From assembly GCA_030272155.1 (NCBI GenBank), contig CP126206.1, positions 1,426,001 through 1,490,000 on the forward strand: a stretch of 64,000 nucleotides of DNA, read 5' to 3'. Source of the DNA: Tetradesmus obliquus (taxonomy: Eukaryota; Chlorophyta; Chlorophyceae; Sphaeropleales; Scenedesmaceae). A model generated the notes under the pieces. That model saw nothing but the letters and a program-made list of their open reading frames with translations, did not search any database and had not been told where the DNA came from. Within the stretch, counting starts at the first letter, position 1, and each line of letters begins with the position of its first letter. This document shows, one piece after another, positions 3,485 to 60,667 of the stretch. The translations under genes and the position numbers were made by a program.

Positions 3485-3551
3485 CAGGTTGACTGCTGCA
3501 GCTCAGGTTGACTGCTGCAGTTCAGGTTGACTGCTGCAGCTCAGGTTGACT
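3485..3551. repeat. 19-bp tandem repeat, about 3.5 copies
   Basis: The unit CAGGTTGACTGCTGCAGCT is repeated with one C/T change. It overlaps the stop of the dioxygenase gene, so the last codons and the 3' UTR start within it. Confidence 0.95.
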
Positions 3552-3648
3552 TCCCCTCATCCGCAAGGCGCCCAAACCCTACCGCAGACACAGCAGCCCC
3601 CATGCACTCTCCATCCCACACGACATGCCCCACAGCATCCTCACCCCC

Positions 3649-3680
<32 letters not shown>

Positions 3681-3846
3681 CTGCGCCTGCAACCACCATC
3701 AGGGGTATAAGGTGCTCCTCTCTTGGGTGCGCTGCCCTGGCCCCTGGTGCTGCTGCCCACTTGGAAAGCAGCTGCCGGCGCTGAGCTGGCGGCTGCACAA
3801 CTGCATCCAGCAGCCAGGTGTTGAAGTCCTGCATAGGTACAGGCGG

Positions 3847-3882
<36 letters not shown>

Positions 3883-5011
3883 TAGCGACAGTCAGTGTCA
3901 GTGGTGATGGCAGACTAGCCAGCACAACAGCACAACTGCATCCAGCAGCCAGGTGTTGAAGTCCTGTAAAGGAAAATGGGCAGCAGCAGCAGCACCAGCG
4001 CCATGCAGTGTCAGTGGAAATGGTGTCACGGCCAGCACAACAACAGCTGCAGCGGCTGAGCTGGCCGCTGTGTGCGTGCATCCAGCAGCCAAATGTTGCT
4101 TTCCTGCAAGGTGGGCAGTGGTGCCCGCAGCAGCAGCAGCAGCAGCAGCAGGAGCGGCAGATTGAGTTAGACAGCAGCTGCCGAAGCTGCGCTGGCGGCT
4201 GCACAATTGTTGCAACCGCATCCAGCAGCCAGGTGTTGAAGTCCTGCAAGAAGAATGCAGTAACAGCAGCAGCAGCAGTGCCAGCAGAAGGAGGGTCAGT
4301 GTATGGTGTACGGGGCAGTGCGACAGCAGCTGCCGGCGCTACGCTGGCCGCTGCGTGCATGCGTCCAGCAGCCAGGTGTTGATGTCCTGCAAGGAAAGAG
4401 CCGGCAGCAGTGGCAGCAGCAGCAGTAACAGCGGCAGCAGATTCAATGTAAGTGGCACAAGGCATGGGGCAACTGTGACCTGTCCTGACTGGGCTTTGTG
4501 GCCAGCCCTATGCCCCTCCCTAGTATCGACATGCTGTGGAAGGACATGCATGAGCATGGCCTTGTAATAACATATGTAACAACATTCAAACCTCACCTGT
4601 CCAGGCAACTTTGACCTGTCTTGACCAGGCTTTGGGGCCTGCCCCTGCCCCTGCCAAGCGTGACATACTGTGGAAGGACATGCTGCAGCCAGGCAATGTA
4701 ACAACTTTTGTAACAGCATTCAAACCTCACCTGTCCGGGCAACTTTGACCGATCTTGACCGGGAATTGGAGCTTGCCCCATGCCCCTGCCCAGTGTTGAC
4801 ATGCTGTGGAAGGTCATGCCTGAGCCCAGCAGCAGCACGCCTTGGGAGCGCAGCGGCGCCAGCGCCTCACCCATTGCGTAGTGCTCCTGTCATTCAAAGA
4901 AGTTTGCAAAAGCAACAGCAGCAGCATCAGCAGCAGTGGGACAAGGAGTAAGAGGGTCCAGCGCCGCATCACATAGTGCTGCTGCGACTTCAATGTGAAA
5001 GAAGTTTGCAG

Positions 5012-5052
<41 letters not shown>

Positions 5053-6994
5053 CCAGCAGCAGTGGGAAAGGAGTAAGAGGGGCCAGCGCCTCACCCATTA
5101 CAAGTGCGCTTGCGTGCAAAGAACCATTTGCGGAAGCAGCAACAGCGGCAGCAGCAGCAGTAGCAGCAGCAGCAGCACGCCTTGGGAGCACAGAGGCGCC
5201 AGCGACTCAACCATCGCATAGTGCTCCTGCCAAACAACACTTGCAGCAGCTGCTGTTAGAACACCAGACTTGAGATAAGTTCAGAGGTGCCAGCGCCTCA
5301 CCCATTGCGTAGTGCTCCTGCAAGATGCAAGTTGCAGTTGCAGCAGCAGCAGGAGCAGCAGGAGCCGCAGCAACAAATCAGGCCAGTGCTTCCAGGTGCT
5401 GCGACTGCTTCTCATGCGACTGCTGCTGTGCATGTCGCCATGGCCGGACACACAAGCAGCGACGCAACATCACTTAAACCATCAGCATCCGATATGCAGT
5501 ATGGTTGTGACGCTGTTACAAAACAAAGCCCTCACGCACCTCAGGGTCCAGGCTGCGTTTCAGTGACAGCTGAACCACGGGGATGTCGGCATCTGGGTAC
5601 ATGCTTCAGCAGCAGCAGCAGCAAGCCAGGCCAGTGCTGCTGCTTCAGCAACTGCTGCTGCCCAAGTCATACCCACCCAGGAATGCACACTGCAAGCCGA
5701 CGGTGCTACATGAAACAGCACAACATATTCAACACATTCAACACATTCAGCAGTGCGTAATCAGCAAGACATTAACACACCTCAGGGTCCAGGCTGTGCT
5801 TCAGTGACAGCTGAACCCCAGGGATGTCGGCCCCAGGGTACATCAGCTTCAGCCGCAGCAGCAGACAAGCCAGTGCTGCTGCAACTGCTGGTGCACAACA
5901 AAACAAAGCATGCCAGGGCTGTACGCAGCCAGTCAATGCTGCCGGAACAACAACAAACAATGAATATCACCACGCTTAAAGTGACTCATCAAACGCTGGC
6001 TTACCTCAGGGTCCAGGTTGTGTTTCAGTGACAGCTGCACCACGGGGATGTCTCATCAGGGTACATCAGCTTCAGCGCAGCAGCAGCACGACAAGCCAGT
6101 GCTGCTGCAACTGCTGCTGCACAACAAAGCATGCCCAGGGCTGTCCGCAGCCAGTCAATGCTGCCAGAACAGCAACAAACAAAAAATATCACCACGTACA
6201 ATTGACACATCAAACGCTGGCTTACCTCAGGGTCCAGGCTGTGTTTCAGTGACAGCTGAACCACAGGGATGTCTCATCAGGGTACATCAGCTTCAGCGCA
6301 GCAGCAGCACGACAAGCCAGTGCTGCTGCAACTGCTGCTGCACAACAAAGCATGCCCAGGGCTGTGCGCAGCCAGTCAATGCTGCCAGAACAGCAATAAA
6401 CAAAGAACATCACCACGTAGAATTGACACATCAAACGCTGGCTTACCTCAGGGTCCAGGCTGTGTTTTAATGACAGTTGAACCACAGGGATGTCAGCATC
6501 AGGGTACATCAGCTTCAGGGGGATGAAGGCGCCGTGGTCTAGCGCCCTGTCAGGGTTGAGGGAGGCCTTGAACCCCGCACCCCTGCAAGGTTTAGCGGGG
6601 AATATGGCTCGCATACAGAGATACAGAGAGCGCCACACCAATCTGGTCACGCGCCCTGTCAAGCTTCAGCAAGGCCTTGAACCCAACACACACAGTGCTT
6701 CACAGGGCAGTGCTTAGAGGCAGTCATCCAGGTTGCGCTGGTGCTGCTGCTGCTGCTCTGAAAGCAGCGAAAGCGCCCCACTCACTTCAGCAGCTCTGCC
6801 GCCTGCTGTGCCAGCTGGGGGTCACCCGGGGCTGGGTACTGCAGGCTGGCTGGTACACCGGTGTGCTGCTGCCGCATCTGCTGTGAAAGAATTACAGTGC
6901 CTGCGCCACTCACCTGAGTAGTTCTGCCGCCTGCTGCGCCAGCTGGGGGTCACCCGGGGCTGGGTACTGCAGGCTGTACGTCTCAGGCGGGAAG

Positions 6995-7041
<47 letters not shown>

Positions 7042-7458
7042 CAAGGTTGTTTTCAATGCTAAATGTTGGCTGTGTCTCTGTACAAGCTGTAAACGCTTCG
7101 AATAGATGCCTTCCAAACTTAGCTCTCCATAACTCAAGTGGGAAAATCTGACGACACACTTTACGCCCCGTACTGCATAGGCTGCACTGCGCAGTGCCCT
7201 TGCCATGCTGGCAGTTCAATGAGGATATGGCTGTCGCTGCTCACCGTAATAATCGTACAGCAGGCCTGGGTTGGTGGATGACGTCAGCTGAGGGTGCTCC
7301 TCCTGGCAGCAGCAGCAGCAGCGGCAGCGGAGGCAGCAGCTGAGACTGTAGAAAAGCATTATAGGGTGTGGTTGCAGCACGCGATGGCAGCTGGCACCTA
7401 ACCAGGCGAGTGTCAAGACATAGCATCAAAACATGCATACACACAAGCTGCTGCTGGC

Positions 7459-7518
<60 letters not shown>

Positions 7519-7706
7519 GCTGCCGCTGCCGCTGCTGCTGCAACAGCACGCACCTCCCAATGTGCCGACACCAGCAGGATGCCTTTCGGCTTCTGCGGTA
7601 CATGCCTTGCTGCTTTTGACAGGAAGCCCACCATTGAGGTGTGGCAGGGGTAGTTTAGAATTGGCAGGGGGCCGCCGCCATGAGGGATGAACAGCGTGGG
7701 CAGCAT
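3541..7706 (-). CDS. LigB-family 4,5-DOPA extradiol dioxygenase-like protein
   Basis: Six exons join in phase on the minus strand: 7706-7554, 7302-7245, 6995-6914, 6582-6447, 4886-4731 and 3828-3541, giving 290 residues, the usual size of this family. Conserved motifs appear in order: [92 protein letters not shown] and [14 protein letters not shown]. The His residues of HGGG, SAHW, DHG and HPREEH are the expected metal and catalytic positions. The family uses a non-haem metal ion and cleaves catechol rings; plant and fungal members act on DOPA, but the substrate here is unknown. The start at 7706 is the Met directly before the first motif; an N-terminal extension with a poly-Ser run is open upstream to about 7859. 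A poly-Ser insert lies near the C-terminus (GAA-Ser10-GGEDAVGHV). Most introns are packed with partial copies of these exons. Confidence 0.9.
3919..4390 (-). repeat. Four partial copies of dioxygenase exon 6 5' end
   Basis: Copies near 3919-3967, 4045-4112, 4174-4250 and 4320-4392 repeat the acceptor and the segment reading DFNTWLLDA plus PPAQxRQLL. Spacing is about 130-145 bp, each followed by CAG/CTG-rich sequence. The copy near 4070-4110 is the most diverged (FGCWMHA). They lie inside the intron before exon 6. Confidence 0.9.
4470..4690 (-). repeat. Two extra copies of dioxygenase exon 5 3' end with donor
   Basis: Segments at about 4612-4690 and 4475-4550 repeat the exon 5 end ([11 protein letters not shown] then GTGAGG) with the beginning of its intron (TTTGAATG, ATAACA). 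The copy near 4612 retains the donor. Confidence 0.85.
4951..5325 (-). repeat. Four extra copies of dioxygenase exon 5 5' end
   Basis: Copies near 4953-4990, 5078-5115, 5178-5235 and 5283-5325 repeat the exon 5 start (acceptor, [11 protein letters not shown]). They are separated by (CAG)n or (CTG)n. Reading frames vary between copies. Confidence 0.85.
5530..6330 (-). repeat. Four extra copies of dioxygenase exon 4 3' end
   Basis: Copies near 5532-5610, 5772-5850, 5996-6090 and 6212-6310 repeat [20 protein letters not shown] and LDPE up to the donor, about 205-240 bp apart. The copy at about 5772-5850 stays in frame ([20 protein letters not shown]). The two nearest exon 4 have lost bases and shift frame after LKLMYPDE. 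Confidence 0.9.
6775..6850 (-). repeat. Partial copy of dioxygenase exon 3 3' end
   Basis: Repeats the exon 3 part encoding [18 protein letters not shown] and the downstream junction. It lies between exons 3 and 4, about 135 bp downstream of the original. Confidence 0.85.
7447..7547. repeat. Long (CTG)n tract in dioxygenase intron 1
   Basis: Around 25 CTG/CCG triplets, the longest in the window. On the coding strand it is (CAG)n starting just after the exon 1 donor, while the same intron ends in CTG repeats at its acceptor (about 7303-7320). Confidence 0.95.
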
Positions 7707-7859
7707 GCTGCTGCTGCTGCTGCTGCTTTCAAGCTTGCTGCTGCTGTCTATATTGCTGCTGCAGGTCTCCTGAGAGGTCTCTGCTGCACCGTGGGTTGAT
7801 GCTGGTATTGATAGAGGTTTGTTTGATGCGTGATTCACGCAGGAAAGCGAGGCAGGCAA

Positions 7860-8866
7860 TGTATTGGAGAGGCAGTTGAGGTGTCACAGCCGTTTCAAGT
7901 ATGCAAAGGGAGCAGTACTATTGTACTGAGAGTTCGGCTGCGTTGTCTAACACGAGCATATGCAGGATGTAATGATCAACTGTTGCTTTGCACACTATGT
8001 TTACTGCAGCCTGGCATGCGCGCTGTGATAAAGCATCATTATGCTAAGCAGTGGCATGCCGTGACCAGCACCGGCATAATCCCGCTCGTCCGACACTCCT
8101 TGGAACGCACCTGCAGAGGAGGACGACAACGTAGCTAGGACAATACATAAAGTGATCGTATGTGCGTTTGTTTTGATGGCCCTAGGACGGCGATACCCGG
8201 GTAGCTGTGAGGAGACGATCATTGTCTGCTATTAGCACTGCCTGGGCGCTTGGCAGCAGACATATGCACTAGACGTCGAGGAAAAACGCAGCCAAGCGCA
8301 GGAAAAGCAGGCAGGCTGATGGTTGGTGCTACAGACTGCTTGTGCTTGTGACAGGTGTGTTACCTCTGGACTGCCGCTGTTCAAGCAGTTGCCAGCTCTC
8401 GCGCAGTCTTTGCTATCACAGACAGCTTGTACATATGTTGAGTCAGACAAAAACCAAACTGACAGCAATTAGCGACTTGATTCATAGTTCACAAGAAATG
8501 CTGAAGCTGCCACTGGGTTCACCATTCAGAATCCTCCAGTGAACCGTTGGGTGATGCGCCTTTGCATATGCTTTTCACCCTGCTGCAGATGCAGTCTCAA
8601 CAGCAAGACAGGCACATTCGAACCCAATGGCTTCTAATTATTACTGCTCAAAGCAAGGCAAGGCGTGACAGCTTCGATGAAAGCAGCACGTCATCACTCT
8701 TCCATGTCACTCTGACAGGTTGACACGCCCCTGCCCGATCCTTCCTGGCACCACCTGCCCACAGCCAGCAGCTGCCAGCGGCCACGGCTACTGCCTACAT
8801 ATGTATGTGTAATCCATTTACTTTTGTTTCTGTCACGATCGAAGGCCACTGCCAGCTGCTCCAAGG
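7860..8866. other. Intergenic, no gene seen
   Basis: Spacer between two divergently oriented genes, the dioxygenase on the minus strand and the YjbQ-like gene on the plus strand. Reading frames here are short and have no recognisable motif. It probably contains both promoters. Confidence 0.4.
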
Positions 8867-8969
8867 ATGCAGTCGCTTGCGCGTGCCAGGACAACCCCAG
8901 CTGCTGCTGCCTTGCGGCATAGAGGCACGCAACGCTGCCAACGTAATCTGCTACACGTTTTGACGCAAG
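8867..8969 (+). CDS. Possible first exon with organelle-targeting sequence (YjbQ-like gene)
   Basis: An ATG opens a 34-codon reading frame rich in Arg, Ala, Thr and Gln with few acidic residues (MQSLARARTTPAAAALRHRG), followed at once by a GTAAGA donor. Such a composition fits a chloroplast or mitochondrial transit peptide. Linking it to the YjbQ-like exons at 10171 is an inference: the phases differ (1 here, 2 expected there), so at least one more exon would be needed in 9.0-10.1 kb. Confidence 0.35.
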
Positions 8970-10170: not shown

Positions 10171-10530
10171 GTTCCAGAATACCATCACGCTCCCGATCCA
10201 CAAGCGCGGTTGCCATGTGGTGACGCGCAAGCTGCTGGCAGAACTGCCGGAGCTAGGAGAATACGAAGTGGGGCTCGCAAACCTGTTCAGTGAGTAGAAG
10301 TGTTTTGTGTGATTGTTGAAGCAGCAACAGCAGCAGCAGCAGCAGCAATAGAGCTAGAAGTGTTCAAAGTTGGCACGGTCATCCCGTTCAGCAAGGTTGA
10401 ATGTAGCAGCAGCAGTGGTGACAGTGCGTCCACGTGGTCACTCGCAAGCTGCTGGCAGAGCTGCCGGAGCTAGGCGAATTTGAAGTGGGGCTGGCGAACC
10501 TGTTCAGTGAGTCCATATCTGTTCAAAGCT

Positions 10531-10562
<32 letters not shown>

Positions 10563-10615
10563 GACAGGGCGGGAGTTGCCAACCTGTTCAGCAAGTCTGT
10601 CATTTAACATGTAAC

Positions 10616-10653
<38 letters not shown>

Positions 10654-11911
10654 TGTTGCGGCGGCAGTCGTTGCGGATATGTCGCTGCAGTGAACCTTGA
10701 CACCTGTCCCTGCCACATGTGCATGAAATGCCTCATGGGTCACAAAGCCGGGGTGAATGCCATGCGCTGTTGTCTGCTGCGAAAGTCTGACCGTGCCTGC
10801 CGCTGAACCCTGCAGTCCTGCACACCAGCGCCAGCCTCACCATCAACGAAAACGCCAGCCCCGATGTGCCCCTAGACCTCAACGTGAGCCGCCGATGTTT
10901 TGATGCATATGTATCTTCATGTTTTGCCAATATATCTTCATGTTTTGTTTGTTATATTGGAATCAAATAGGCGTCACTAGAACTACTTGGATGATTGCAC
11001 TTAGCGCCAGCCCTGACGTGCCCCTGGACCTCAACGTGATTGCTTGAGGCGGTGACAACTCGATGCGTTCCATAACAAGGTTAAGCGTCCAGGTGCTTCG
11101 CATTTGCTGTGAAAGGGACTTGTGGCGATCTCACTAGTGATGGAGGCAGTGCCTTCGACTCCAGGGGCTTGGGTTCACCTGATTGTTGCTGTGTTGTCAG
11201 CTAGTGGGATTACGCCCCACCCCTGGTCGCCGAGCCATCAAACTGTGTGCAGGCTAATTGAAGTGTGGCCGTTGTCACTGACATGTTGCTAACACACTGC
11301 TGCCTGCAGGACGCCCTGGACAAGCTGGCACCTGAGGGCAACCACTATCGGCACCTAGACGAGGGGCTCGATGACATGCCAGCACACGTCAAGGTATGTA
11401 ACTTGTTCATAAACTGTCACTTTGGTGTTACTAGCACGCTGCATCTGGTCAGGGGCTGCTGCTGCTGCTGTTGTTTGTCGCTGCTGGTGCTTCAGCTGTT
11501 GTTCTTTGGTGCTTCTCTCCTCAGTACGGGTTTGCATTGGTCGTCAGCACCGTATCTGCAAAAGCCGTTGCTGTCTCCACTAAATAATGACTGCTGCTGC
11601 TGCTGCTGGTGCTGCTGTTGCCACTTGCAGAGCTCCCTGATGGGCCCCTCCCTGACCATCCCTATCGCCAAGGGCCGCTTTGCGCTGGGCACATGGCAGG
11701 GTATCTACCTGAATGAACACAGGTGCGGTCGACAACAGGGGTTGACCAAGTTTGACCAGGTTTGACTCTGATCGTGCAAATTTGAACTACTGTTTGTGCT
11801 CTGTCGCGAGGCTCCTGCATGGGGGAGCATCCACCTGAAGCAGCACCGTTGCACAGCTGTTTGGCCAGGTGTTTGCATGCGTTCTGTCAACACTGCTGCC
11901 TTGTCAGCTGC

Positions 11912-11965
<54 letters not shown>

Positions 11966-12052
11966 AGGAACTACGGCGGCTCACGCAGCATCATCGTCAC
12001 CATCCAAGGCCAGAAGCGGCCAGATGGCAGGCGATACGGGCAATTCAGCTGA
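10171..12052 (+). CDS. YjbQ/UPF0047 family protein (secondary thiamine-phosphate synthase type)
   Basis: Five exons join in phase: 10171-10289, 10816-10883, 11310-11393, 11631-11722 and 11968-12052. The deduced core reads FQNTITLPIHKRGCHVVTRK, GLANLFILHTSASLTINENA, SPDVPLDL, the HLDEGLDDMPAHVKSSLMGP region, SLTIPIAKGRFALGTWQGIY and GGSRSIIVTIQG, which covers the UPF0047 domain almost end to end (about 149 residues). Bacterial YjbQ can substitute weakly for thiamine-phosphate synthase; the cellular role is not settled. Conserved His residues in RGCHV, LHTSAS and PAHVKSS are present. The 5' end is incomplete: exon 1 needs an upstream exon ending in phase 2. Three acceptors sit directly after (CTG)n tracts. 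Partial copies of exons lie in the introns and downstream. Confidence 0.9.
10430..10605 (+). repeat. Partial copies of YjbQ-like first core exon
   Basis: About 10432-10507 repeats TRKLLAELPELGEFEVGLAN plus LFS and the GTGAGT donor, with a Y to F change. A shorter copy at about 10568-10600 repeats only the final VANLFS part. Both lie in the intron after exon 10171-10289 and are separated by (CAG)n. Confidence 0.9.
11003..11038 (+). repeat. Partial copy of YjbQ-like exon 10816-10883 3' end
   Basis: Repeats SASPDVPLDLN and the GT of the donor (GTGATT instead of GTGAGC), about 155 bp downstream of the original. Confidence 0.85.
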
Positions 12053-12117
12053 TGGCAGCAAGTTTGCACACACTTATAATTGTACATTAGACATGCTGCG
12101 GTGTTAGAGACGTACTG

Positions 12118-12122
12118 CATGT
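12118..12122 (+). terminator. TGTAA polyadenylation-type signal
   Basis: TGTAA lies 66 bases after the stop codon of the YjbQ-like gene. This pentamer is the usual poly(A) signal of chlorophycean algae. Confidence 0.5.
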
Positions 12123-12289
12123 AATGTGGTAACACTTGGTGCGTCTTGTCGGGACTTTAGGCGCTTTGGTTTTTCAAGTCGCTAGGCATCCCCTTCTTCT
12201 GGTGGTGGCCTTGCACTGCACTTTGCAGATGTCTATGCTTGAGACCTGATGTAACAAGCATCCTTATGCTTACTCCCTATAACACTTGC

Positions 12290-12400
12290 ATCAATACACT
12301 GTCGCTGGTGATGCGCGGCTCGTCATGCAGCACGAGGTGCCGCAATGTGTGGTGGCAGTACTTTTGGTTACCAGGGGGCCACCATGCAGGGTCAGAAGCA
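12290..12400 (+). repeat. Degenerate copy of YjbQ-like last exon
   Basis: CGCGGCTCGTCATGCAGC and the CACCATGCAGGGTCAGAAGC segment resemble the last exon of the YjbQ-like gene but with frame-breaking changes. It lies in the 3' flank. Confidence 0.5.
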
Positions 12401-12695
12401 TGGGCTAGGCTGGTGTTCCCTCTGTAGGCAAATTTGCCTCGAACACTACTGTGTGCCGGGCAGTACTGTAATGTACAGCGAGGTCGCTGCCCTAGCCACC
12501 CTGTTTGACGTGTGTCAATGCTGGTGACACTGTAGGTACATGGGACCCTTCGCCGCACTGAGGAAACATTGCGAGGCCCGCGGGGCACAGAGCCCCATGC
12601 AAACACACACCAAAGGTTGCAGCAGGCTCATTTACAATACCATATACAGGACTGAACCAGCCTCGGCCTGCTTTTCAGCCCCTGGCTGCGGCAGC

Positions 12696-12832
12696 AACGG
12701 GGCGTAGTGTGCCCCGGACCACAGCAGGTGCACGTGCATTGGTGCTTCCCCCTCGTTGGTGCTTTTTGCCATACGTCAGGATGTACTGCGGGCCGCCCCA
12801 GGCTGCCTCATACACCGATGGTAAACAACACA
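12696..12832 (-). repeat. Decayed copy of OTU gene last exon
   Basis: Minus-strand reading starts VYEAAWGGPQYILTYG and then loses frame before the MHLLWSGAHY region. It is the most distant of three copies of the last exon and looks dead. Confidence 0.8.
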
Positions 12833-13504
12833 TGGGCACCCCCACTCAGTGCAGCAGCCGGTGACGGTCTCAATGGGCAGAGCCATCCTGATGCACACCA
12901 CATCATAAAGTACTACTAGTACGTAGTACGTCGCCAACCTCAGGACTGCGCTGCTCCACAAGCAAAGCATGCAGCAACATACTGGCCATCAAGTACGTCG
13001 GCACAACACCACCCTCATGACTGCGCTGCTGCCGCAGCAGCGAGCCGCTAGGCAGGTGCTGTGCCAACCTACTTGATGAATAGTGTGATGACCTGCATGG
13101 CTTGCGCAGCGGCTGTTAACAAAGAGTTTACATACACGTAAGCAATGGGCTGAAGCTGCAGCTGCCATCTGCCGGCAAAAAGATGCATCCTGTGCATGCA
13201 GTTGCTGTTAGCGCCACCACACCTCAGGCTGGGTTGCGGATGCCACAACTCGAGTGTTGCATGACGGCAACTCAACTTGTGAGCTGGCTCTCGTGCTCAG
13301 TTCAAGAACCATCGATAGGCGCCGAGCCTATCTTGGGGCCAAAACAGCCAATAGCAACCACTCAAGCAAGCCTCACAACTTGCCAACTGCAACAGTTGCA
13401 CAGATCACGGCACACCGAGCGCAACACAAACAGCGCTACAACACACCAACTGTTGCAGCAGGCCTCGCAGCTTGCTGGCTGGCTGGCTGGCTGGCTGCAG
13501 CAGG

Positions 13505-13645
13505 CTTTACAACTTGCTGGCCGGCTGCGGCAGCAGGTCATAATGCGCGCCGCTCCACAGCAGGTGCATGGGTGCTGCTGACTTTTCGAAATCTTCGCCA
13601 TATGTCAGGATGTACTGCGGGCTGCCCCAGCCAGGCTGGTACACC
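13505..13645 (-). repeat. Intact copy of OTU gene C-terminal exon
   Basis: Reads VYQPGWGSPQYILTYGEDFE, then KSAAPMHLLWSGAHYDLLPQ, PASKL and stop, with a possible acceptor just upstream. It is an in-frame alternative to the C-terminal half of exon 13782-13972 and still carries the catalytic His. Confidence 0.85.
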
Positions 13646-13781
13646 GCTGGTAAAGGTCACATGGGCACCCCCACTCACTTGAGCAGCCAGTTTGAAGTCA
13701 CTGCCAGAGACAAAAGAGATGGTGCCAGGACCCACATGTAACTTCCCTCTCTCACAATTCCCGGGCACACCACAGCATGCC

Positions 13782-16072
13782 TCACAGCTTGCTGGCTGGC
13801 TGTGGCAACAGCAGGTCGTAGTGTGCCCCGCTCCAAAGAAGATGCATGGGTGCTGCAGCTATTTCAAATTCTTCGCCATACGTCAGGATGTACTGCGGGC
13901 CTCCCCAGGCTGCCTGGTACACCGCAATGGGCCGCTGCAGCACACGGGATGCCATCAGAAGCTCCGGCTCGCCTGATGGCAGCAGCAGCAGCAGCACAGC
14001 AGCAGTGTTGAACATATACCTAAACGACAATGGGCCGCTGCAGCACACAGGATGCCATCAACAGCTCAGGCTCCCCTGCATAGTGGCAGCAGCAACAGCA
14101 GCAGCAGCAGCAGCGGTGGTAGTTTTTGTGAGGCTAGTACACCGCGATGGGCCGCTGCAGCACACAGAATGCCATCAGCAGCTCCAACTCGCCTGCAATA
14201 TGGCAGCAGCAGCAGCAGCAGCACCAGCGGCAGCAGCAGTAGCAGTGTTGGTTTCTGTCGGGCTGGTGCCATCATAGCCACGACGTCGTAATACATTTTG
14301 AAGTTGACATAATCTTTTTACCTGTCTGACATTACAGGGCAGCCATGCAGGGCTCACCTCCCCACACCCCTGGCTGCGCCATCTGTCAATGGCTCCTGCT
14401 TGGGGCTATGCTCTCATGCTCTTGTCCTACGCTGGGTACCCTACAGAACCGCCCGACCTCACCTCCCCACACCCCCGGCTGCGCCATCTTTGCCAAGTAG
14501 TCGTCAAAGTCGTCAGCAATGCCCGGCAAGAAAGGCTCCATGTCCCTGCAGCGGCAGCAGCGGCAGCAGCAGCAGCAGCAGTGTTGTGGCATACAGCAAA
14601 GCGCAGCGCAGCGCAGCACAGCACAGCACATGGCAGACACGCAAAGCACAGCACATGGCAGACACGCAAAGCACAGCACGGCACACAACATAGCCCTGCA
14701 GCGCATACAGCAGGTTGAACCCAGGCTGACAGCACAGCACAGGACAGTAAGAGATGGTGCCACATTTCCTTAAATCATGGATTTGTACAACCTTTTCTGT
14801 TGCAAGCATGCAAGCAACTGCTGCGCTTGCCGCACTGCAGCCTACCTCTGTGTTCTACCACCCTGCACACCAGCTTCGTGTGAACACCAAAAGCTCAATC
14901 CGCAACGTCACTGATGAACCAGCAAACAATAATCAATGGTGCGTTGTAAAGGGAGAGTTTTCATTTTACCGTTGTGCTGACTACCGTCAAATGAATAATG
15001 CAACAGGGACACCTCACTCTGTGCTCTTGCGCAGCTCCTCCACTGCTGCCTGCCGCAGCGCCGAGTCTCAGCTGTATGTCTGGTGGTGACCTTGCACACA
15101 TGCCCTGAACATGCAGCTGCATCCAATAAACCAACTTTAGCCTAAACCACGACATACAGGCACCACCCACTCCCTGTTCTTGCGCAGTTTATCCACCACC
15201 GCCTGCCGCAGCGCCAGCGCCTGGGCTGTATGTTTGAGCAGAAAAGCCATTTATCTACATGTCTGCCCCCACGCGCACACAAGCAATCAATAAAACCACA
15301 CAAATGAGAATGCTTAATGCATTGTGTTTAGAAACAGGTCACCAGGCCGCACAGTCACCCTGCTGTTCTTGCGCAGCTACTTCACTACTGCCTACGCACA
15401 GAAGTATGCAGAGCGCACCCACGGGCATGAAGATGCTTGGTACACTGTGTTTATGCACATGTCACCCGGCACCACTCACTCTCTGTTCTTCCGCAGCTCC
15501 TCCACCACTGCCTGCCGCAGCGCCAGCGCTTTGCTGTACTCCGCAGCAGCAGGCAGCTGCTGCCCGCCGTGCTGCAGCTGGTGGTGGCCCTGCACGCACG
15601 CCCTGAACATGCAGCTGCCGTCTCCGGTAATGCCACACTTGGCAAAGCGAGTGGGCCGCTGCTGCTGCAAAGGAAGCGCGCTGCTGCTGCTAGTGCTGTC
15701 TGTGGGGGAGCTGCGTGTTATAACGTCTGCTCGCTCGGCTTGGGGACGTGGCAGGGAGCTTAGTGTTGGCTGCCTGCTGCGTTTGGGCTGAGCATTGCTG
15801 TGCATGCTGCAAGGGCGGGATGAGATGGCAGGGTGCAGCAGTAGCTGCACAGCGAACTGCTGCGGGCTCGCACGGACTGCGGAGCTGCTGGAAAATTGTT
15901 TAACAGGTAAGTGAAGCATCGTTGCAGAGTGATCGCGATCAGCAGGTGGAAGGACCGAGCAGGACAACAGCGCAAGGAACACACAGCTCAGCACAGCAGA
16001 TTCAGGCCGTTTCCAACATGAGCTTTGCCTCATACAGCTTAGATTACAGACTTGAAGTTGTTTACTGTGCAT
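13782..16072 (-). CDS. OTU-domain cysteine protease (deubiquitinase)
   Basis: Three exons join in phase: 16072-15480, 14545-14463 and 13972-13782, giving 288 residues. Motifs in order are GITGDGSCMFRACVQGHH (Asp and nucleophile Cys of the OTU core), LRQAVVEELRKNREDMEPFL, AKMAQPGVWGGEPELLMASR, VLQRPIAVYQ, YILTYGEEFE and MHLLWSGAHYDLLLP (catalytic His). OTU proteases cleave ubiquitin from substrates; linkage preference cannot be read from sequence. The N-terminal 120 residues are Ser/Arg/Gln-rich and could be a targeting or disordered region. The start at 16072 is the first ATG of the open frame, but a further 5' exon is possible. (CTG)n tracts precede both internal acceptors. Confidence 0.85.
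14031..14200 (-). repeat. Two copies of OTU exon 3 5' end
   Basis: Segments near 14031-14085 and 14146-14200 repeat the exon start (GELELLMAFCVLQRPIAVY in the distal one) with upstream CTG repeats. The period is about 115 bp. Confidence 0.9.
14347..14392 (-). repeat. Copy of OTU exon 2 3' end with donor
   Basis: Repeats MAQPGVWGG and the following GTGAGC donor about 115 bp beyond the real donor. Confidence 0.85.
15010..15410 (-). repeat. Three copies of OTU exon 1 3' end with donor
   Basis: Copies near 15018-15075, 15166-15235 and 15355-15400 repeat the ALALRQAVVEELRKNRE segment and its GTGAGTG donor in different states of decay. They lie in the intron after exon 1. Confidence 0.85.
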
Positions 16073-16074
16073 GC

Positions 16075-17730: not shown

Positions 17731-17754
17731 CAGTACTCAGTACAAGGTGAGCAG

Positions 17755-18005
17755 TCTACCGGTAACACCACCAAACCCCTGCCCTGCGCGCGCCTCTGTA
17801 TACTGTCTCCACAATGTCCACAAACTCTCCTCGCTCTGCTGCATTTGTGACACCATCACTGCTGCACTGAAATGATGACTGTACTGCAGGCCACACAGCT
17901 GCAAAGACGATGCAGCAATTGGAGCTGCAGCTGCTGCAGCGGCGGTACCCTGCTGACTCAGTAGCGGCACATGGTAGAGTAGTCCTTGGGTGACACCACC
18001 AACCT
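17755..18005 (-). repeat. Two copies of DIM1 last-exon 3' part
   Basis: About 17955-18002 repeats VVSPKDYST plus a stop region. About 17757-17835 repeats the segment encoding FVDIVETVYRGARKGRGLVV in degenerate form. Both are downstream of the real stop. Confidence 0.9.
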
Positions 18006-18039
18006 GCTGCTGCTGCTGCATATGCATGCAGCTGACGCC

Positions 18040-18178
18040 TCAGTAGCGGTACTTGGTGGAGTAGTCTTTCGGTGACACCACCAGACCCCGTCCCTTGCGC
18101 GCGCCCCTGTACACCGTCTCCACGATGTCAACAAACTCCTGCTTGTCATTCATGGCCCAGTTGATCTTGTTGTTGTTA

Positions 18179-18218
<40 letters not shown>

Positions 18219-19117
18219 GCAGCAGCAGCAAGCAGCAGAAGACTTAGGTCAGCAGCTGTGTACAAACAGAAGGGCCGCCTGAGTTGCTTGCCGCTGCAGC
18301 AAATTGCGAGTAAAAGGAGTACAGACACCACAGTAATACAGCACGCGTCTGTTACAGATGACAGAACATATGTGACGATGATGAATTGTTACTAACAGCC
18401 ACATGGACATGTGACACACTGTGCCCAGGTCAACCATGATGTGCTTGTTTCTGATAAAGAACATGGTGGTGCAGGGCTCGAGAGAAGAAGATGACCAAAA
18501 CACACATATAACCCGTTACATATGTTGCTAACAGTCACATGACAAAGGTACGCACCTATGCCCAGGTCCACCATGTTGTGCTTGTAACTAAAGAAGAACA
18601 TTGTGGTGCACAGGTGAGAACATGACCAGAACACAAACAAGCCCCATAACACATGTTACTGACAGTCACATCAGAAAGGTGACACACCTGTGCCCAGGTC
18701 CACCATGATGTGCTTGTTCCTGAAGAAGAACATGGTGGTGCAGGGATCGTATAGCTCGTACATGGTGTTGAAGTCGGGAACTTCACTGATGTCCACTAGG
18801 AAGATGACCGCAAAGTTCTTCATCTGGTCGGCAACAGAGGCCAGGATCTCATCCTGCTGCATGCACTGCGGGTCCCAGTCGTGCCCGAAGCGGATGACCA
18901 CCACTCGCTCTTCCTCGCCCAGGATGGCCTGTTGTGGGTTGCAAGAGCCAGCGGCAAACAGAAGTGCGACAATGGCGAGGCAAAGAGCTTGTAACAAGGA
19001 GGCCTGTTCAGTGCACGACGTCCGTGACACAGCTGTTGCCGCAGCGACAAAAGCACAAACCCCACCCACCTGGTCCACGGCGTAGCCGCTGTGCAAGTGG
19101 GGCAGCAGGTAACTCAT
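18040..19117 (-). CDS. DIM1: DIM1/DIB1 thioredoxin-like U5 snRNP protein (TXNL4A orthologue)
   Basis: Three exons join in phase: 19117-19070, 18928-18688 and 18179-18040, giving exactly 142 residues, the length of the human and plant proteins. The sequence is close to the eukaryotic consensus: MSYLLPHLHSGYAVDQ, EEERVVVIRFGHDWDPQCMQ, VPDFNTMYELYDPCTTMFFF, RNKHIMVDLGTGNNNKINWA and VVSPKDYSTKYRY. The protein is a core component of the U5 snRNP and U4/U6.U5 tri-snRNP and acts in nuclear pre-mRNA splicing before B-complex activation. A (CTG)n tract precedes the last acceptor. Copies of the ends of exons 2 and 3 lie in intron 2 and downstream. Confidence 0.97.
18181..18232. repeat. (CTG)n tract at DIM1 intron 2 acceptor
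   Basis: Plus-strand CAG run; on the coding strand it is (CTG)n ending GCTGCCAG at the splice acceptor. Confidence 0.9.
18405..18625 (-). repeat. Two copies of DIM1 exon 2 3' end with donor
   Basis: About 18557-18618 reads CTTMFFFSYKHNMVDLGIG and about 18414-18478 reads CTTMFFIRNKHIMVDLGT. Each is followed by a GT near the original donor and by the same intron-start sequence (CATGTGACTGTTAG type). The period is about 135-140 bp. Confidence 0.95.
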
Positions 19118-20334
19118 GCTGCCCTGCTGCTGCCGCTGCTGCTGCTGCTACCGCTGCTGCCCTGCTTGCTAGCTGAGAGGTGGCAGCTGTACGCTGCTGC
19201 TTTGCAGCTGATGGCCTGGTGTCAGCGCCGCAAATCTTATGCAGTGGCGCCGAGTCCTGCAGTCTCTGTGCGATCGGCTTGCAGGAAACTGCCCGTGTCC
19301 TGCAAGCATGACAACGGCACAGCAGGAGCGTCATTTTAAGCATCACATGCAAGAAACCAAACATCTCAACAAACATCAAACCAACAGCTGTTAGTTTACG
19401 GTCCATTTGGTGCAAATGGGGGCAGCATTGCCCTTGCCACGTGCCACCAGAGGCAGCAGCACCGCTGCTGCTGCTGTCTGCGAGAGCGCATAGCGCTAGC
19501 GGCATCTGCAGTTAATAGCTGAAGCATCTGTGGGTGTTGGTCTTTCAGGGGATGCCGCACATGATGCACCCCCAAGAAGCAGAATTGCTGCTGCATCAAA
19601 CAAGCTTCTGGAAGCAAACACTCATCAGCCGCAGTGCCATCGCACGCACTGGCACCTGCTGCTTAGATGACGGCAAAAGCTGCTGCCAACCAAGATAATC
19701 AGGCAAGGTCACACCCTGAAGCTACGAGATGCTGCTGAAGCGCGCAACAGAAGTCACCTGCAAACCCACTGCAGCAGCAGCAGCTGCTGCCTTGCCCCTC
19801 AAGTTCTAGCCAACCGCGCTGTGCCAGACGAACACTGATAACCTCTAATTTCAAATCACTTCAATACGCAAGTTTCAGCAATTTTTAGTGTGGTTGAGAA
19901 GCCGAGGGGTCTCGCGCGATCAGAGCTCAAGCTCAGCCAATGCAGGAAGCAGAACAAGCCACGGACTTTCGATGCAAAGCTTCGTCAAAGCTAAAGAATC
20001 ATGTCGACGAACCTTTGCAGGGCCAAGGTACAAAGTACTACTAAGCTCCTGTAGGCCTTGCGCTCAGCTCTGTACCCTGGGTGCAGGTGTTTGCTGTGCC
20101 TACTGTGTCTCAGACTTCAGTGAAGCGATGGTAGGGAGCAGCCTGCTCACAATGCAGTTGTTCTTTTCACGCAACTGTTTTGTTGAGTTCTCTCTAATCG
20201 TATCGATAGTATCCTGTCAGTGTGCTGCAACGGTGTCCACCTGTACCACACCTCCTCACTAGCCTGCCTAGACGTCCCTACAGGCCCTCACCAGCCAGCA
20301 ACGGCAACGCTTCTCCTTTTAGCTACCAATTACC
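19118..20334. other. Intergenic between divergent DIM1 and VIR3-like genes
   Basis: No gene recognised. It contains CTG/GCT-rich sequence near 19127-19170 and shared 5' regulatory space of the two divergently transcribed genes. Confidence 0.4.
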
Positions 20335-20927
20335 ATGGCTCTATTTGCCGTCCTTCACGCCACCAGCAACCCCTGGATCAGCAGCAGGCAGGGCAGGCCC
20401 CACCACACGCATGCAGTACAGCAGCAGCGCTGCTGCCACTACAGCCACACGGCAGGGCAGCTCGGTTTGGCAACAACAGTCTGCAGGTCTGCCAGCGTGC
20501 AAAGCCCCAGCATAAGCCTTGACAAGGTAAGCGTGTGATATCTTTGAGGTTGCATGAGCATCTGTTGGTGCATACCTTTGGAAGTGTGTGTTCTGTTGAT
20601 CCTGCAGGAGGCATTTGTGTAAGAGTGCATTGTTCTGGCGTGCATAGCTGCTGCAGGTGCAGTTTATATAAGGTGTGCTCTGTTGATTCATGGGTTGTCT
20701 CATAGAGGTTGGGCCTCAGCAGGTGCATTGCTGGGTTACCTTTGCGCCTGTGCCTGCCCTGCTGCCCCCCTGCTTGCTTGCAGGACAGCAGCCTCCTACC
20801 TGTGCACCATGCAAATACTTTCGTTTTTCAATATTCCTGCACACGCCGTGCTGCTTGCCTGCCTGCCTGCTTGCAGGACAGCACCCTCACCTCATTCTGT
20901 CAGCAGCTGGACAGCATCCTGGTGAGT

Positions 20928-20985
<58 letters not shown>

Positions 20986-21283
20986 GCAGCAGCTGCAAAA
21001 TCACTGTCAGCAACTGTTCAGCAGCAGTAGCAGCAGCAGCAGCCTGCAGTCATTTCGCCAGCAGCTGGGCAGCTTCCTGGCGTGTTCTTGGATTAGCTGC
21101 AGCAGCAACAGCAGCAGTTGCTTCATTTTCGGTCACCACCGCCAGCAGCAGCACCAGCACCAGCAGCAGCAGCAGCAGGGCAGCATATGCACTGAGGGAC
21201 TGTGTAACTTCTGCAGGCTGCGGCGATGCCTGTCCTCACCAGGCTGGGTGCCTGAGCCACATCAATGCATTGAAACCTGTCGC

Positions 21284-21314
<31 letters not shown>

Positions 21315-23428
21315 ACTGCTGCTTTTTCTGCCGCCAGGCTGATGCATCGGGCGACGGTAGCAATGCGGGCAGCAATGCGGGCAGCAATGCTGAGAAGCTG
21401 GCGGTGCAGCTGGCGGAAGCGGCCCGGGCGCAAGGCCTGGTCAAGGTGTGTAGGGGCCCTGCTCGGCTTTGTCTGTTGTTGAAGTGCCGCGCTTGTTAGT
21501 TAATTTGTGGAACTGATGTACGTGCATCTGTGTGTGTAGAAGCCTGTGTAAAAGCCTGTGTAAAAGCCTGTGCCCAGCAGGGCGGTGTTTGCTGCTGGGC
21601 AGCAATGCTGGGCAGCTGGCGTTGCAGCTGGCGGAAGCGGCCCGGGCGCAAGGCCTGGTCAAGGTGTGTGGCGGTGACGTGTCTTGCGTCGGGTGGTGAT
21701 GTGCCCCCTGGCGAATGCACTGCATTTGTGTATTGCGAAGGTGACTGCCGTGCCAAAAGCTGCATGTTTGAGTGCCGATCCATGTGTGCTACTGGGCGGC
21801 TGTCGCTGTCGCTATTGCTGGTGCCGCACAAGGTGTGTCGCACAGCCACACTCAATGTCTGCAGGCATTTGTCACAAAGCTGTTGACACAACACTGCTGT
21901 GTTTTGCTGTATCTGCAGGCGTTTGGCAGGGGCCTGCAGGTGCCTAAGCGCACCTACACAATTGATGAGCTGCGGCTCAAACCCTGCAGCACTGTCACGC
22001 CCTGCCCAAACCCTGCGCTGCTGCTGTGCAATTATCCCTGCAGGCGTTTGGCAGGGGCCTGCAGGTGCCCAAGCGCATCTACACGATAGATGAGCTGCGG
22101 CTGACCCGTTGCACCACTGTGGCTAAGCCCTGCACTTGTGCTCTTTGCCTTCAACCTGCTCTAATTGCAGGCGTTTGGCAGGGGCCTCCAAGTGCCCAAG
22201 CGCATCTATACAATCGATGAGCTGCGGCTGAACAAAGTTGAGCCGGAGAAGCTGCTGTCTCCCACAGGTGGGTTGTTACATTGTTATTTATGTTGTTAGT
22301 GACAGCCTTTGAGTTTTGAGGGCGCTGAGAAGCTGCAGTCACGCTGTTGCAGTGACTGCATTGGCTGTGTATCGTCACAGTGGCGTGGAAAGGCGCCTGG
22401 TGCTGTCGACTATGGCAGCACAGCTTTCTTTGTTTGAATGCTGTTACTGTCCAGTGGTTGGAAGCACCCCACTCACCAGCTCACTGCTGCTGTTACAATT
22501 GTGTTACATCGTGTGCAGATGACAGCCTCAACTACGTGCGCAACGTGGCGCAGGGGGCAGCAGCAGCAGGGCTGGCAGCAGTCGCATACTTCTCAGGTGC
22601 GCAGGCAGGGCCTTTTGTCACTACGCTTGCTGAAGTCCTGGCGTGCGTGTTCGGCAGCAGGAGCAGCAGCAGCAGCAGCACAAGGAGCAGCAGCAGCAGC
22701 GCTAGCAGCGTACTGGCAGTGGCCATATGTGGCGTGCAGCAGCGGTGGCAGCTGCAGCGAGGGCATCATTTGCGCCCTTGTTGGGATACGGCTGAGTTGT
22801 GCAAGCCTCGACTCAGGCAGCAGCAGCGGTGGCAGCAGTAGACATCAGCCCCCATCAGCAGCTCTGCCGAGTGGCACATCGCCTCTCCCAGGTCTCAGGT
22901 ATAACGCCAGTCAGTGTATACACCGTTGCTGCCGCTGCTGCTGCTGCTGCTGCCGCAGGCTTTGATGGCGGCAAGGTGTTTGGCACGCTGCTGGGCGCTA
23001 GCTTCCTGCTTGCAGCAGACCAGGTGAGCAGCAGCAGCGGCAGCAGCAGCAGCAGCAGCGGCAGCGACAGCGGCAGCAGCACCATCTGCAACAGCAGCGA
23101 CGGCAGCTAACAGGTGAGGACGGCGGCAGCAGCAGCGGCAGCAGCAGCAGCAGCAGCAGCATCTTGTGCCGGCTTCGTGCGGGCAGCAGACCAGGTGAAG
23201 GAGGGCGGCAGCAGGAACGATAGCAACAGCAGCAGCAGCAGCAGCAGCATCTTGTGCCAGCTTCCTGCTAGCAGCAGACCAGGTGAGGAGGACGGCAGCA
23301 GCAGCAACAGCAGTAGCAGCAGCAGCAGCAAAAGCAGCATGCGGCAGCAGATCAGGTGACTAACGCAGAGGCAGCAGCACTAAAGGCAGGGGATGGGAGC
23401 AGCAGTTACAGATGGGAGCAGCAGTAGC

Positions 23429-23465
<37 letters not shown>

Positions 23466-24864
23466 TCATGCATGCTGCTGCCGCTGATCTGCCTGTGTTA
23501 CCTCGTTTGCTGCTGCTGCTGCTGCTGTTACTGCTGCTGCTGCCAGGTGGCCAACATGGGTGGCGGCGAGGCACTCATTGTCGACACGCTTGGGCGCGTA
23601 ATCAGGCCTGCCTACCAGCAGAGGGTTACTCTGCACGAGGCAGGTCACTTCATGATAGCATACCTGGTGGGGCTGCTGCCACGGGGTTACACCCTATCAT
23701 CGCTGGACGCGTTTTTGAGGTGCGGCTTGTTGTGCATGTATTTTCGTGGCTGTTGCTTCCGCTGTTACATTGTTACATCGCCGCGTCACCTGGTTGGGCT
23801 GCTGCCACTGGTGCGATAGCGGCTTTGAGGGGGGGGGTGGCAGCGGCTGCTCTGCACACCTCATCTTCCAGCGCCTGCACATTGTTTTGCAAATGCGGTC
23901 CTACTGAAGCTGCCAAACAAACGAACACTGACCAATGCACGCCTTTCTTGTGCTGCCAAACCATGTCTGTGATTATGTATGCAGGTACAGCGCTGTCAAC
24001 GTGCAGGCCGGCTGCCATTTCTGGACGGCGGCTTTATAATGGAGGTGGCAGCTCCGCTCTCCACACACCCCGCCGCCTGCACAATGTGTGCAAAATTAAA
24101 TCACTCTCCGCCAATCGGATGACTTTACACTGACCAATGCCTGCATTTTTTCTTCATATGCAGGTACCGCGCGCTTAATGTGCAGGCCGGCTGCCACTTC
24201 TGTGACGGTGGATTTGAAGGGGAGGTGGCAGCGGGGCGCCTCAGCAGCAGCAGCCTGGACAGGTTCAGCTGCGTGGCCCTAGCTGGCGTAGTAACGGAGT
24301 ATCTGCGGTTTGGCCAGGCAGAAGGAGGCGTTGGAGATGTGGCACAGCTTGACCAGCTGCTGCGGGCGCTACAGGTGAGTTTGAAGGGTTTTACAGGGTT
24401 GGGCTGTGTGGTCAGGTTTTCAGGATTGTTCAGGGGCTGAAAGCACGACTCGAGATGGCTTAGCAGCAGCAGCCTGGACAGGTTCAGCTGCGTGGCAACC
24501 CGCAACGCTGCTGTTGGCAACCCCCGCTCCAGGCTTAGCGCGTCGCGCTGCACCCTGCATGTGTGCTGACCAAGTGCTGCTGCCGCTGCTGCTGCTGCTG
24601 CTGCCTTCTCTACTGCCGTAGTTCACCCAGAAGAAAGCAGACGGCCAAGTGCGCTGGGCGGTGCTCAACGTGGCTGCGCTGCTGCGGCGGCATGCAGACT
24701 TGCACGACAAGCTTGCTGCTGCCATGGCTGCTGGTGCGTCTGTGGGCAGCTGTGTGGCGCTGATAGAGAAGGATCTGGCAGGCAAGGCTGAGCTGCTGGC
24801 GGCAGAGGCTGGCAGTGTGTCAATGGAGAGCCCATTAACCAGCACAGCTACTAGCAGTGAGTGA
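20335..24864 (+). CDS. Plastid FtsH-related (M41-like) metalloprotease, VIR3-like
   Basis: Nine exons join in phase: 20335-20526, 20877-20921, 21338-21445, 22171-22267, 22519-22596, 22959-23023, 23547-23719, 24164-24374 and 24622-24864, giving 403 residues. Exon 1 (MALFAVLHATSNPWISSRQG, then Ser/His/Gln-rich) fits a chloroplast transit peptide. After GLQVPKRIYTIDELRLNKVE there is a probable membrane stretch around the AAAAGLAAVAYFSG and VFGTLLGASFLLAAD segments. The protease part has RVTLHEAGHFMIAYL with the HEAGH zinc site, then LPRGYTLSSLDAFLRYRALN, SSSSLDRFSCVALAGVVTEY and KKADGQVRWAVLN. No AAA+ ATPase module is present. This matches the plant family that includes Arabidopsis VIR3, linked to chloroplast development through suppression of FtsH2 loss. 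Proteolytic activity of the family is presumed. Tandem partial exon copies lie in at least six introns or flanks. Confidence 0.9.
20771..21082 (+). repeat. Copies around VIR3-like exon 2
   Basis: About 20771-20800 repeats the acceptor and DSSL start of exon 2 upstream of the real one. About 21047-21080 repeats its 3' part (SFRQQLGSFL against SFCQQLDSIL) downstream, after the (CAG)n run. Confidence 0.8.
20929..20990. repeat. (CAG)n tract directly after VIR3-like exon 2 donor
   Basis: About 20 CAG/AGC triplets starting 7 bases into intron 2. The same intron ends in (CTG)n at about 21281-21323 before its acceptor. Confidence 0.95.
21590..21665 (+). repeat. Copy of VIR3-like exon 3 3' end with donor
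   Basis: Repeats LQLAEAARAQGLVK and the GTGTGTG donor, 218 bp downstream of the original, nearly identical over about 60 bases. Confidence 0.95.
21900..22110 (+). repeat. Two tandem copies of VIR3-like exon 4 5' part with acceptor
   Basis: Copies start at 21919 and 22044, 125 and 127 bp before the next copy; the real exon starts at 22171. Each has its own TGCAG acceptor followed by AFGRGLQVPKR(T/I)YTIDELRL, then diverges. Neither has the exon's donor. Confidence 0.95.
23160..23362 (+). repeat. Three copies of VIR3-like exon 6 3' end with donor
   Basis: Near 23168-23200, 23252-23288 and 23338-23360 the segment GCTTCCTGC..GCAGCAGACCAG plus GTGA recurs, separated by (CAG)n, in intron 6. Confidence 0.9.
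23980..24062 (+). repeat. Decayed copy of VIR3-like exon 8 5' part
   Basis: Preceded by a TATGCAG acceptor. It starts YSAVNVQAGCHFWTAAL against YRALNVQAGCHFCDGGF and loses the frame. Confidence 0.9.
24447..24515 (+). repeat. Copy of an internal segment of VIR3-like exon 8
   Basis: Repeats LSSSSLDRFSCVA in intron 8; no splice site is visible at its ends. Confidence 0.85.
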
Positions 24865-24904
24865 CGGCATGTCGTCACATCGTACACATTGTGCACAGAG
24901 TGAG

Positions 24905-25265
24905 TTTTAGTTTGCTGAACAAGCTTGCTGCTGGCTGTCCACGGGCAGAGCCGCCCATCAAAGGCAGACTGTTGCTCATACTGATATTGGATGTTGGGTG
25001 CCTTTCAAAGGGCTGGTGTGGTCAGGTTGCTTTTTTTACTGCCCAACGAGCCTGTCATTGGCTCCTCAACGGCGAGGTTACTTGTGTAACTTCCAAAATG
25101 TGATAAATGTGCATGTTGGGTGCCTGTGTGGGGCTGTGAGAGGGGCTGCTTGAGAGAGAACAGGCAAGCCTGCAGCAGGGCTGAGCTGCGGGCAGCAGAG
25201 GCTGGCAGTGCGTTGATGGAGAGTCCACTGCGCACAGCCACCAGTAGTGAGCGACGACAGTGTGC
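24905..25265 (+). repeat. Copies of VIR3-like last exon in the 3' flank
   Basis: About 25180-25255 repeats AELRAAEAGSALMESPLRTA up to the TSSE end region. A shorter NKLAAG segment occurs near 24917. Confidence 0.85.
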
Positions 25266-34469: not shown

Positions 34470-34541
34470 GCCAAAGCCCGCTGCACACCCAGCAAAACCA
34501 CATGCATCCATGCCTTGGCAGGTGGCCACTGCTGTCTGCGC

Positions 34542-35679: not shown

Positions 35680-35738
<59 letters not shown>

Positions 35739-39258: not shown

Positions 39259-39311
<53 letters not shown>

Positions 39312-50815: not shown

Positions 50816-50837
50816 GCAAGAGTTCTGGTACTGTCTG

Positions 50838-56126: not shown

Positions 56127-56210
56127 CACACAGCACCAGCCAAAGCCCGCCGCACACCCAGCAAAACCACATGCATCCATGCCTTGGCAGGTGGCTCCTG
56201 CTGTCTGCGC

Positions 56211-57349: not shown

Positions 57350-57393
<44 letters not shown>

Positions 57394-60632: not shown

Positions 60633-60667
<35 letters not shown>

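Follow-up and report, generated by a model that had tools for sequence, protein, structure and literature searches.

The closest described counterpart of the structures treated here is exon stuttering, reported for genes on chicken dot chromosomes (Hron et al. 2026, Genome Biol Evol evag038, PMC12954441), and in the literature searched the term was used by that study alone. According to the part of the article available to us, lateral parts of exons have been copied together with their splice sites through the adjacent intron, forming imperfect tandem clusters whose source lies at the exon border in more than 90% of cases and which occupy adjacent rather than distal introns. In the same part of the article the coding exons are intact, alternative splicing is raised as a possibility, and the 236 introns of 115 genes lie mostly on bird dot chromosomes rich in guanine and cytosine (GC). 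Intron gain by tandem genomic duplication, as in potato RdRp (PMC4974935), is also related; there, in the portion of the source at hand, the duplication creates a new intron. Here we describe, for the green alga Tetradesmus obliquus (genome of 104.66 Mb in 17 contigs), tandem arrays of partial exon-edge copies, starting from a stretch of 64,000 nucleotides, hereafter the window (contig CP126206.1, C16:1426001-1490000). Two further systems invite comparison: introner elements, which are intron-associated repeats in algae belonging to one dispersed family, and mutually exclusive duplicated exons, which are whole exons in tandem with both splice sites.

The original prediction on this window was that one end of an exon, with its splice junction, is tandemly repeated in five genes. 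Such copies were found in the five genes and recur beyond the window in chaperonin and proteasome genes, and local direct duplicates occur in most of the genome samples taken. The main signal, absent from the prediction, is that the copies differ from the real exons mainly at synonymous positions.

Exon-edge copies in the window and elsewhere in the genome

Local direct duplication is more than chance. Comparison of the masked window with itself gave 60 local direct-repeat pairs (E<=1e-4), clustered at 3.7-25.4 kb and 26.5-28.9 kb and falling mostly in the five predicted genes, over which more than 30 copies were counted by eye where at least 30 had been claimed. Between 3 and 29 kb there were 58 direct and no inverted pairs, with none in shuffled sequence, and 5 pairs came from the largely transposon-like (by eye) 29-64 kb. 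The self-comparison proposed with the prediction was also run on 20 genome samples of 10 kb, taken at fixed positions on ten contigs and shuffled in 3-base blocks; 16 of them hold local direct pairs (174 direct, none inverted, none in the shuffles), at GC contents of 0.49-0.65. The ten chaperonin (CCT) loci, picked as conserved genes, gave 220 direct and 2 inverted pairs, and eight proteasome loci 35 and none. When the chosen loci are pooled with the window, nearest copies most often stand 100-140 bp apart (81 of 213 spacings; 2 of 213 are below 80 bp); the median between 3 and 29 kb of the window is 224. Up to seven copies occur on one exon side among the CCT, proteasome and window genes. At L033:976-1197 the 3' end of a proteasome exon is followed by seven downstream copies, 115-156 bp apart. 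It should be noted that it is the chosen genes that tie the duplicates to exons, since the 20 samples carry no gene models, some of their pairs are long arrays of other kinds, and the mod-3 signal is weak.

The gene names were checked with Pfam on joined exon translations, read by eye. The LigB-type dioxygenase (PF02900), OTU (PF02338), UPF0047/YjbQ (PF01894) and DIM1 (PF02966) assignments stood, whereas the gene called VIR3-like instead matches T. obliquus OEZ85_000105, 'Peptidase M41 domain-containing', to which Pfam gave no family. The exons of this M41-like gene were mapped from OEZ85_000105 (spliced alignment of P0241, 339 of 403 residues, covering the gene without its 5' end), the DIM1 and YjbQ exons were determined by reading and translation, and the exon bounds of the dioxygenase and OTU genes are inexact. 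M41-like, DIM1 and YjbQ form the three mapped window genes; the five mapped genes include also CCT1 and CCT5. CCT1, on the same contig as the window, is annotated as OEZ86_010546, and its exons were taken from its own annotated protein with 463 of 547 residues placed in the locus; those of CCT5 came from a T. obliquus protein, the last two being set by hand. Exons 4 and 5 of YjbQ were entered one base early in the exon-edge tests, and no copies of these two exons were found.

In the five mapped genes 36 of 39 duplicate families contact an exon, where shifting the layout round the gene gives an expectation of 20.5+-2.5, and CCT1 (p 0.011), CCT5 (p 0.005) and M41-like (p 0.024) are significant singly. 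Duplicate segments cover 35 of 76 exon ends (9 of 32 in the three mapped window genes), and copies of an adjacent exon stand in 23 of 33 introns (6 of 13 in the window genes, at >=42 bits). All 64 copy matches of at least 42 bits lie in introns adjoining the source exon, with none in non-adjacent introns of the same five genes. At E<=1e-3, 11 of the 16 exons of the three window genes have at least one match, and in the CCT1 locus exon-derived copies make up 23.7% against 14% for the exons themselves. Copies were also detected for 27 of 52 chaperonin exons and at 4 of 8 proteasome loci, on 9 of the 17 contigs (C3, C6, C9, C10, C12, C14, C15, C16 and C17); together with the exon enrichment this agrees with the genome-wide process that had been proposed. 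The enrichment does not prove duplication aimed at edges, because purely intronic duplicates lose recognisable similarity faster and old ones would be missed.

The copies span one exon edge and end inside the exon, often at a breakpoint common to the copies of one array (by eye). The prediction that the real exon always keeps one intact outer edge holds as a pattern; it needs no special cause, since any one-edge tandem duplication leaves a single unit joined to the remaining exon. A splice junction is not, as had been supposed, always carried: terminal exons are copied beyond the stop codon in DIM1, M41-like and, by eye, OTU, and the copy at 24474-24496 is internal to its exon.

The original prediction also offered CAG/CTG slippage or microhomology repair at intron boundaries as the cause. 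CAG/CTG tracts abound in the introns of the window, and some units lie directly against them. At least two CAG/CTG-type units occurred at the exon-internal breakpoint in 8 of 82 CCT copies, compared with 19.9% of random 24-mers, a count made on the CCT copies, the arrays of the window being more CAG-rich; we regard such targeting as very improbable. An artefact of assembly is conceivable in principle, as short repeated units are hard to assemble and the arrays were judged from the assembly alone. We consider it scarcely credible, as the copies are direct, lie next to exons, have kept their splice sites and show a synonymous bias, as the protein annotated for CCT1 can be aligned exactly across the arrays, and as the pattern recurs in many genes.

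Synonymous-biased divergence and its possible origin

In 95 alignments of copies with real exons (1930 codons) the differences at the three codon positions were 99/102/376, and the ratio of nonsynonymous to synonymous divergence (pN/pS) was 0.20; a bootstrap over 43 CCT exon sides gave a median of 0.19 (0.13-0.26). A simulated dead copy, with the exon conserved and the mutation spectrum taken from the copies' own first and second positions, gave 0.48+-0.05. Between copies the ratio was 0.30 versus 0.83 if all change were neutral. The window genes (290 codons) and the proteasome genes (373 codons) gave 0.28 and 0.29. The amino-acid changes themselves resemble neutral ones, with a mean BLOSUM62 score of -0.36 against -0.37+-0.12 in the neutral simulation (window -0.58, proteasome -0.19), the means for differences among CCT1 orthologues being 0.04 to 0.80. 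Four stops were present in the 1930 codons, where 7.2+-2.8 were expected.

Decay of the copies with distance from the exon, another part of the original prediction, was not borne out. Of 99 CCT comparisons, 54 had the higher similarity in the nearer copy, as had 2 of the 5 exon sides of the mapped window genes that carry two copies, and synonymous divergence (pS) in CCT was flat over three distance bins (0.250, 0.251 and 0.256). Over the mapped genes pS was also alike whether the intron flank aligns or not (0.298 and 0.282; Spearman p=0.69), in both cases under the saturation value of 0.65. When the real exon was compared with two copies, third-position changes were equal on real and copy lineages (141 with the real exon odd, 284 with a copy odd over the two copies), and first- and second-position changes were unequal (20 and 212). 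In CCT1 and CCT5 there were 0.004 gap columns per aligned base between copy and exon, 0.009 between copy and copy, and 0.193 between linker and linker.

The copies might be plain relics, duplications having arisen anywhere in the genes, with those that break exons purged and the rest decaying neutrally, so that edge copies are merely easier to recognise. Such recognition must add to the enrichment, 3 of the 39 families make no contact with a real exon, and the directionality follows from geometry. The bootstrap range of pN/pS nevertheless lies below the 0.48+-0.05 expected of relics, and with a pN of just 0.05 the flanks ought to align well, yet the flanking 50 bp fails to align in 34 of 54 edge-spanning copies. 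The relic model is thus already disfavoured, and we find it unlikely.

Alternatively, the spliceosome could take the donors and acceptors of the copies often enough for direct selection on them as coding sequence and splice sites. The low pN/pS would fit this, as would the splice sites: 54 of the 64 adjacent matches reach the exon edge and 52 of these 54 keep the AG or GT, as do 75 of 81 copies in a wider, overlapping CCT set. Exon 8520-8667 of CCT1 has a downstream copy of its 3' end, and within this copy the annotated protein P0003 has a 27-nt exon (L023:9191-9217), whose AG is made by a single base unlike that of the real exon. Short duplicated peptides occur in P0121 and in P0243 of Scenedesmus, that of P0121 being only partly placed on the T. 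obliquus locus used here. The predicted potential of the copies to supply splice sites is supported by the retained dinucleotides and by one annotated isoform. On the other hand, the exon-internal ends of the copies show no consistent GT or AG (by eye, 82 rows), stop codons follow soon after several upstream copies, stops are present, and the copy-containing isoforms are annotated gene models that may be gene-model choices. Because the amino-acid changes are neutral-like, no consistent inner splice site is seen and stops come soon after several upstream copies, the copies are probably not under direct selection, and we think regular use of them rather unlikely. In Scenedesmus sp. NREL 46B-D3, P0243 is annotated as M41-like and has the peptide doubled at an exon start, and P0242 of the same strain lacks the doubling; this may be the same kind of copy in a related alga.

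The copies fit a sequence that was functional for most of the time since it parted from the present exon and became non-functional only recently. Equal synonymous divergence in near and far copies, and with or without alignable flanks, likewise fits an equilibrium, not a duplication history. We therefore favour, at roughly even confidence, tandem duplication across exon edges followed by continuing exchange between the copies and the functional edge. A unit of about 30-100 bp of exon plus linker would be duplicated directly, neighbours mostly being 100-140 bp apart, and amplified into the arrays that we observe, presumably during replication or repair. The functional unit would be the sole one still attached to the rest of the exon, hence the intact exon at the outer end. 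The exon-derived part and its splice dinucleotide would then keep exchanging with the functional edge, through either gene conversion or unequal exchange and both within a haplotype and between diverged ones, selection acting on the functional edge alone. The copies would accordingly be recent snapshots of long-diverged functional sequence, and for this reason rich in synonymous differences and poor in indels, with intact splice sites and with amino-acid changes that are few and look neutral, while the linker, without a functional anchor, would drift past recognition. A side effect would be a stock of exon ends competent for splicing, and at least one of these has been annotated as an exon. 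Continuing exchange is the simplest process we found that could yield such equilibrium-like divergence.

Several observations weigh against this explanation. The ratios of 0.28 and 0.29 in the two replications are nearer the dead-copy expectation, whose mutation spectrum was itself drawn from these data. Part of the indel contrast is due to alignment, because short local alignments end at gaps. The exon enrichment is not significant for DIM1 (p 0.71) or YjbQ (p 0.27) alone, and no copy was detected for 25 of 52 chaperonin exons, at 3 of 10 chaperonin loci or at 4 of 8 proteasome loci. No conversion tracts were seen, and 19 of 26 informative site pairs are incompatible where random homoplasy would give about two thirds, the sites being few. 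Further, pN/pS is still 0.27 where a single copy was detected, so that exchange between haplotypes and a high diversity, here assumed, would be required.

More tentatively, and with rather more doubt than belief, we speculate that exon edges exist as small families of one functional member and splice-competent partial copies that trade sequence with it. These would serve as a store of coding variants already tested and of alternative splice sites, kept near the functional sequence by exchange or by real use in transcripts.

Positions of the copies in the five genes

The dioxygenase gene lies on the minus strand. Self-comparison and the LigB Pfam match place about five copies of one exon edge, with inexact exon bounds, at 3761..4397 (pairs 3761-3833/4167-4248, 3764-3833/4322-4391, 3769-3838/4044-4112 and 3795-3837/3930-3972). 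By self-comparison, a 134-bp tandem array not assigned to an exon occupies 4467..4825, and exon-piece copies with spacings of 340/431/91 occupy 4842..5321. At 5534..6518 an exon 3' end (about 6445-6518) is accompanied by four downstream copies with the donor, at spacings of about 221-241 bp (array period 221; the exon was translated and the donor read by eye). An exon edge and one copy at a spacing of 128 bp lie at 6775..6976 (74 bp, 92%).

The YjbQ/UPF0047 gene at 10171..12052 on the plus strand has the exons 10171-10289, 10816-10883, 11310-11393, 11631-11722 and 11968-12052 (including the stop), with 3'-end copies at 10430-10512 and 11005-11039. In the OTU gene, on the minus strand, the 3'-terminal exon (about 13776-13925) has copies at 13501-13647 and 12682-12862 (12682..13925; self-comparison, translation and Pfam). 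The 5' part of an exon with two upstream copies, spaced 103 and 117, was found by self-comparison at 13914..14197. Self-comparison and translation gave an exon edge with one copy at a spacing of 105 (14353..14489) and an exon 3' edge (about 15468-15538) with downstream copies (15003..15538). DIM1, also on the minus strand, has the 3' end of its last exon (18042-18179, stop adjoining) copied past the stop at 17957-17999 and 17740-17827 (17740..18138), and the 3' end of exon 2 (18688-18928) with its donor followed by two downstream copies of period about 132 (18387..18749).

The M41-like gene (20877..24864, plus strand) has the exons 20877-20921, 21338-21445, 22171-22267, 22519-22596, 22959-23023, 23547-23719, 24164-24374 and 24622-24861, with the stop at 24862-24864. 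By eye about 5 residues in 339 differ between the OEZ85 annotation and the present sequence, a hint of diversity, the OEZ85 and OEZ86 assemblies being taken here for haplotypes or strains. A 3'-end copy of exon 21338-21445 with its donor lies at 21614..21669 (56 bp, 98%), and exon 22171-22267 has its acceptor and 5' end copied twice upstream, at 21905..22104, the copies differing from it by 5 synonymous and 0 nonsynonymous, and by 6 and 1, changes. A CAG-rich array of period 88 at 23000..23330 contains 3'-end copies of exon 22959-23023. Exon 24164-24374 has an upstream copy of its 5' end at 23978..24052 (83%) and, at 24474..24496, the small internal copy without a splice site. The terminal exon 24622-24861 has its 3' part copied twice at 25119..25439, the nearer copy spanning the stop codon.

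Outside the five genes, about 4 tandem units of about 265 bp, 73-83% alike, occupy 26570-27518 and start in a long open stretch of the plus strand, where a gene finder places an exon at 26164-26696. Consecutive plus-strand open reading frames at 50300-53787 resemble by eye a Ty3/gypsy-type retrotransposon, with putative reverse transcriptase and integrase motifs. Two long stretches, at about 34300-41400 and 56000-62900, carry near-identical open reading frames and tandem repeats that match in their order and represent a segmental or transposon duplication.

Comparison with known systems

Like introners, the arrays are intron-associated repeats in an alga; the exon parts of the copies, compared within the five genes, match the adjacent exon (64 adjacent and 0 distal matches). 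As in mutually exclusive exons there are exon duplicates in tandem, here however partial, with one edge and one splice site. CAG/CTG repeat instability would put the breakpoints in CAG/CTG tracts, and in the CCT copies such units are not enriched there. Local tandem duplication involving exon and splice signals is common to our arrays and to the intron gains described in the available part of PMC4974935, whereas here existing introns gain copies whose exon-internal ends lack a consistent GT or AG by eye.

A microbe would become available for studying the growth of introns out of exon sequence and the way in which the spliceosome passes over, or makes use of, many near-identical decoy sites. 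The synonymous-biased divergence gives a handle on the evolution of the arrays and makes co-evolution of exon pieces by exchange testable, and the arrays matter for annotation because copies enter annotated proteins.

As far as the accessible text of PMC12954441 goes, the anatomy of the algal arrays matches exon stuttering. Partial edge copies with a splice site stand in the adjacent intron (64 matches, 54 at the edge, 52 of these with AG/GT), they are local, with 0 distal matches of at least 42 bits in the five genes, and they form imperfect tandem clusters with as many as seven copies on one exon side. The two differ in their distribution over chromosomes: mostly bird dot chromosomes there, and here a green alga with copies on 9 of 17 contigs, at GC 0.49-0.65 and in 23 of 33 introns of five chosen genes. 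A word search of that text returned neither 'synonymous', 'selection' nor 'alga'; synonymous-biased divergence is seemingly not treated there for the birds, and it appears to be the main novelty here. Our results would add to the bird dot chromosomes, as a second setting of exon stuttering, a green alga whose essential housekeeping genes (those for CCT chaperonins and the proteasome, and DIM1) lie amid arrays of their own exon ends.

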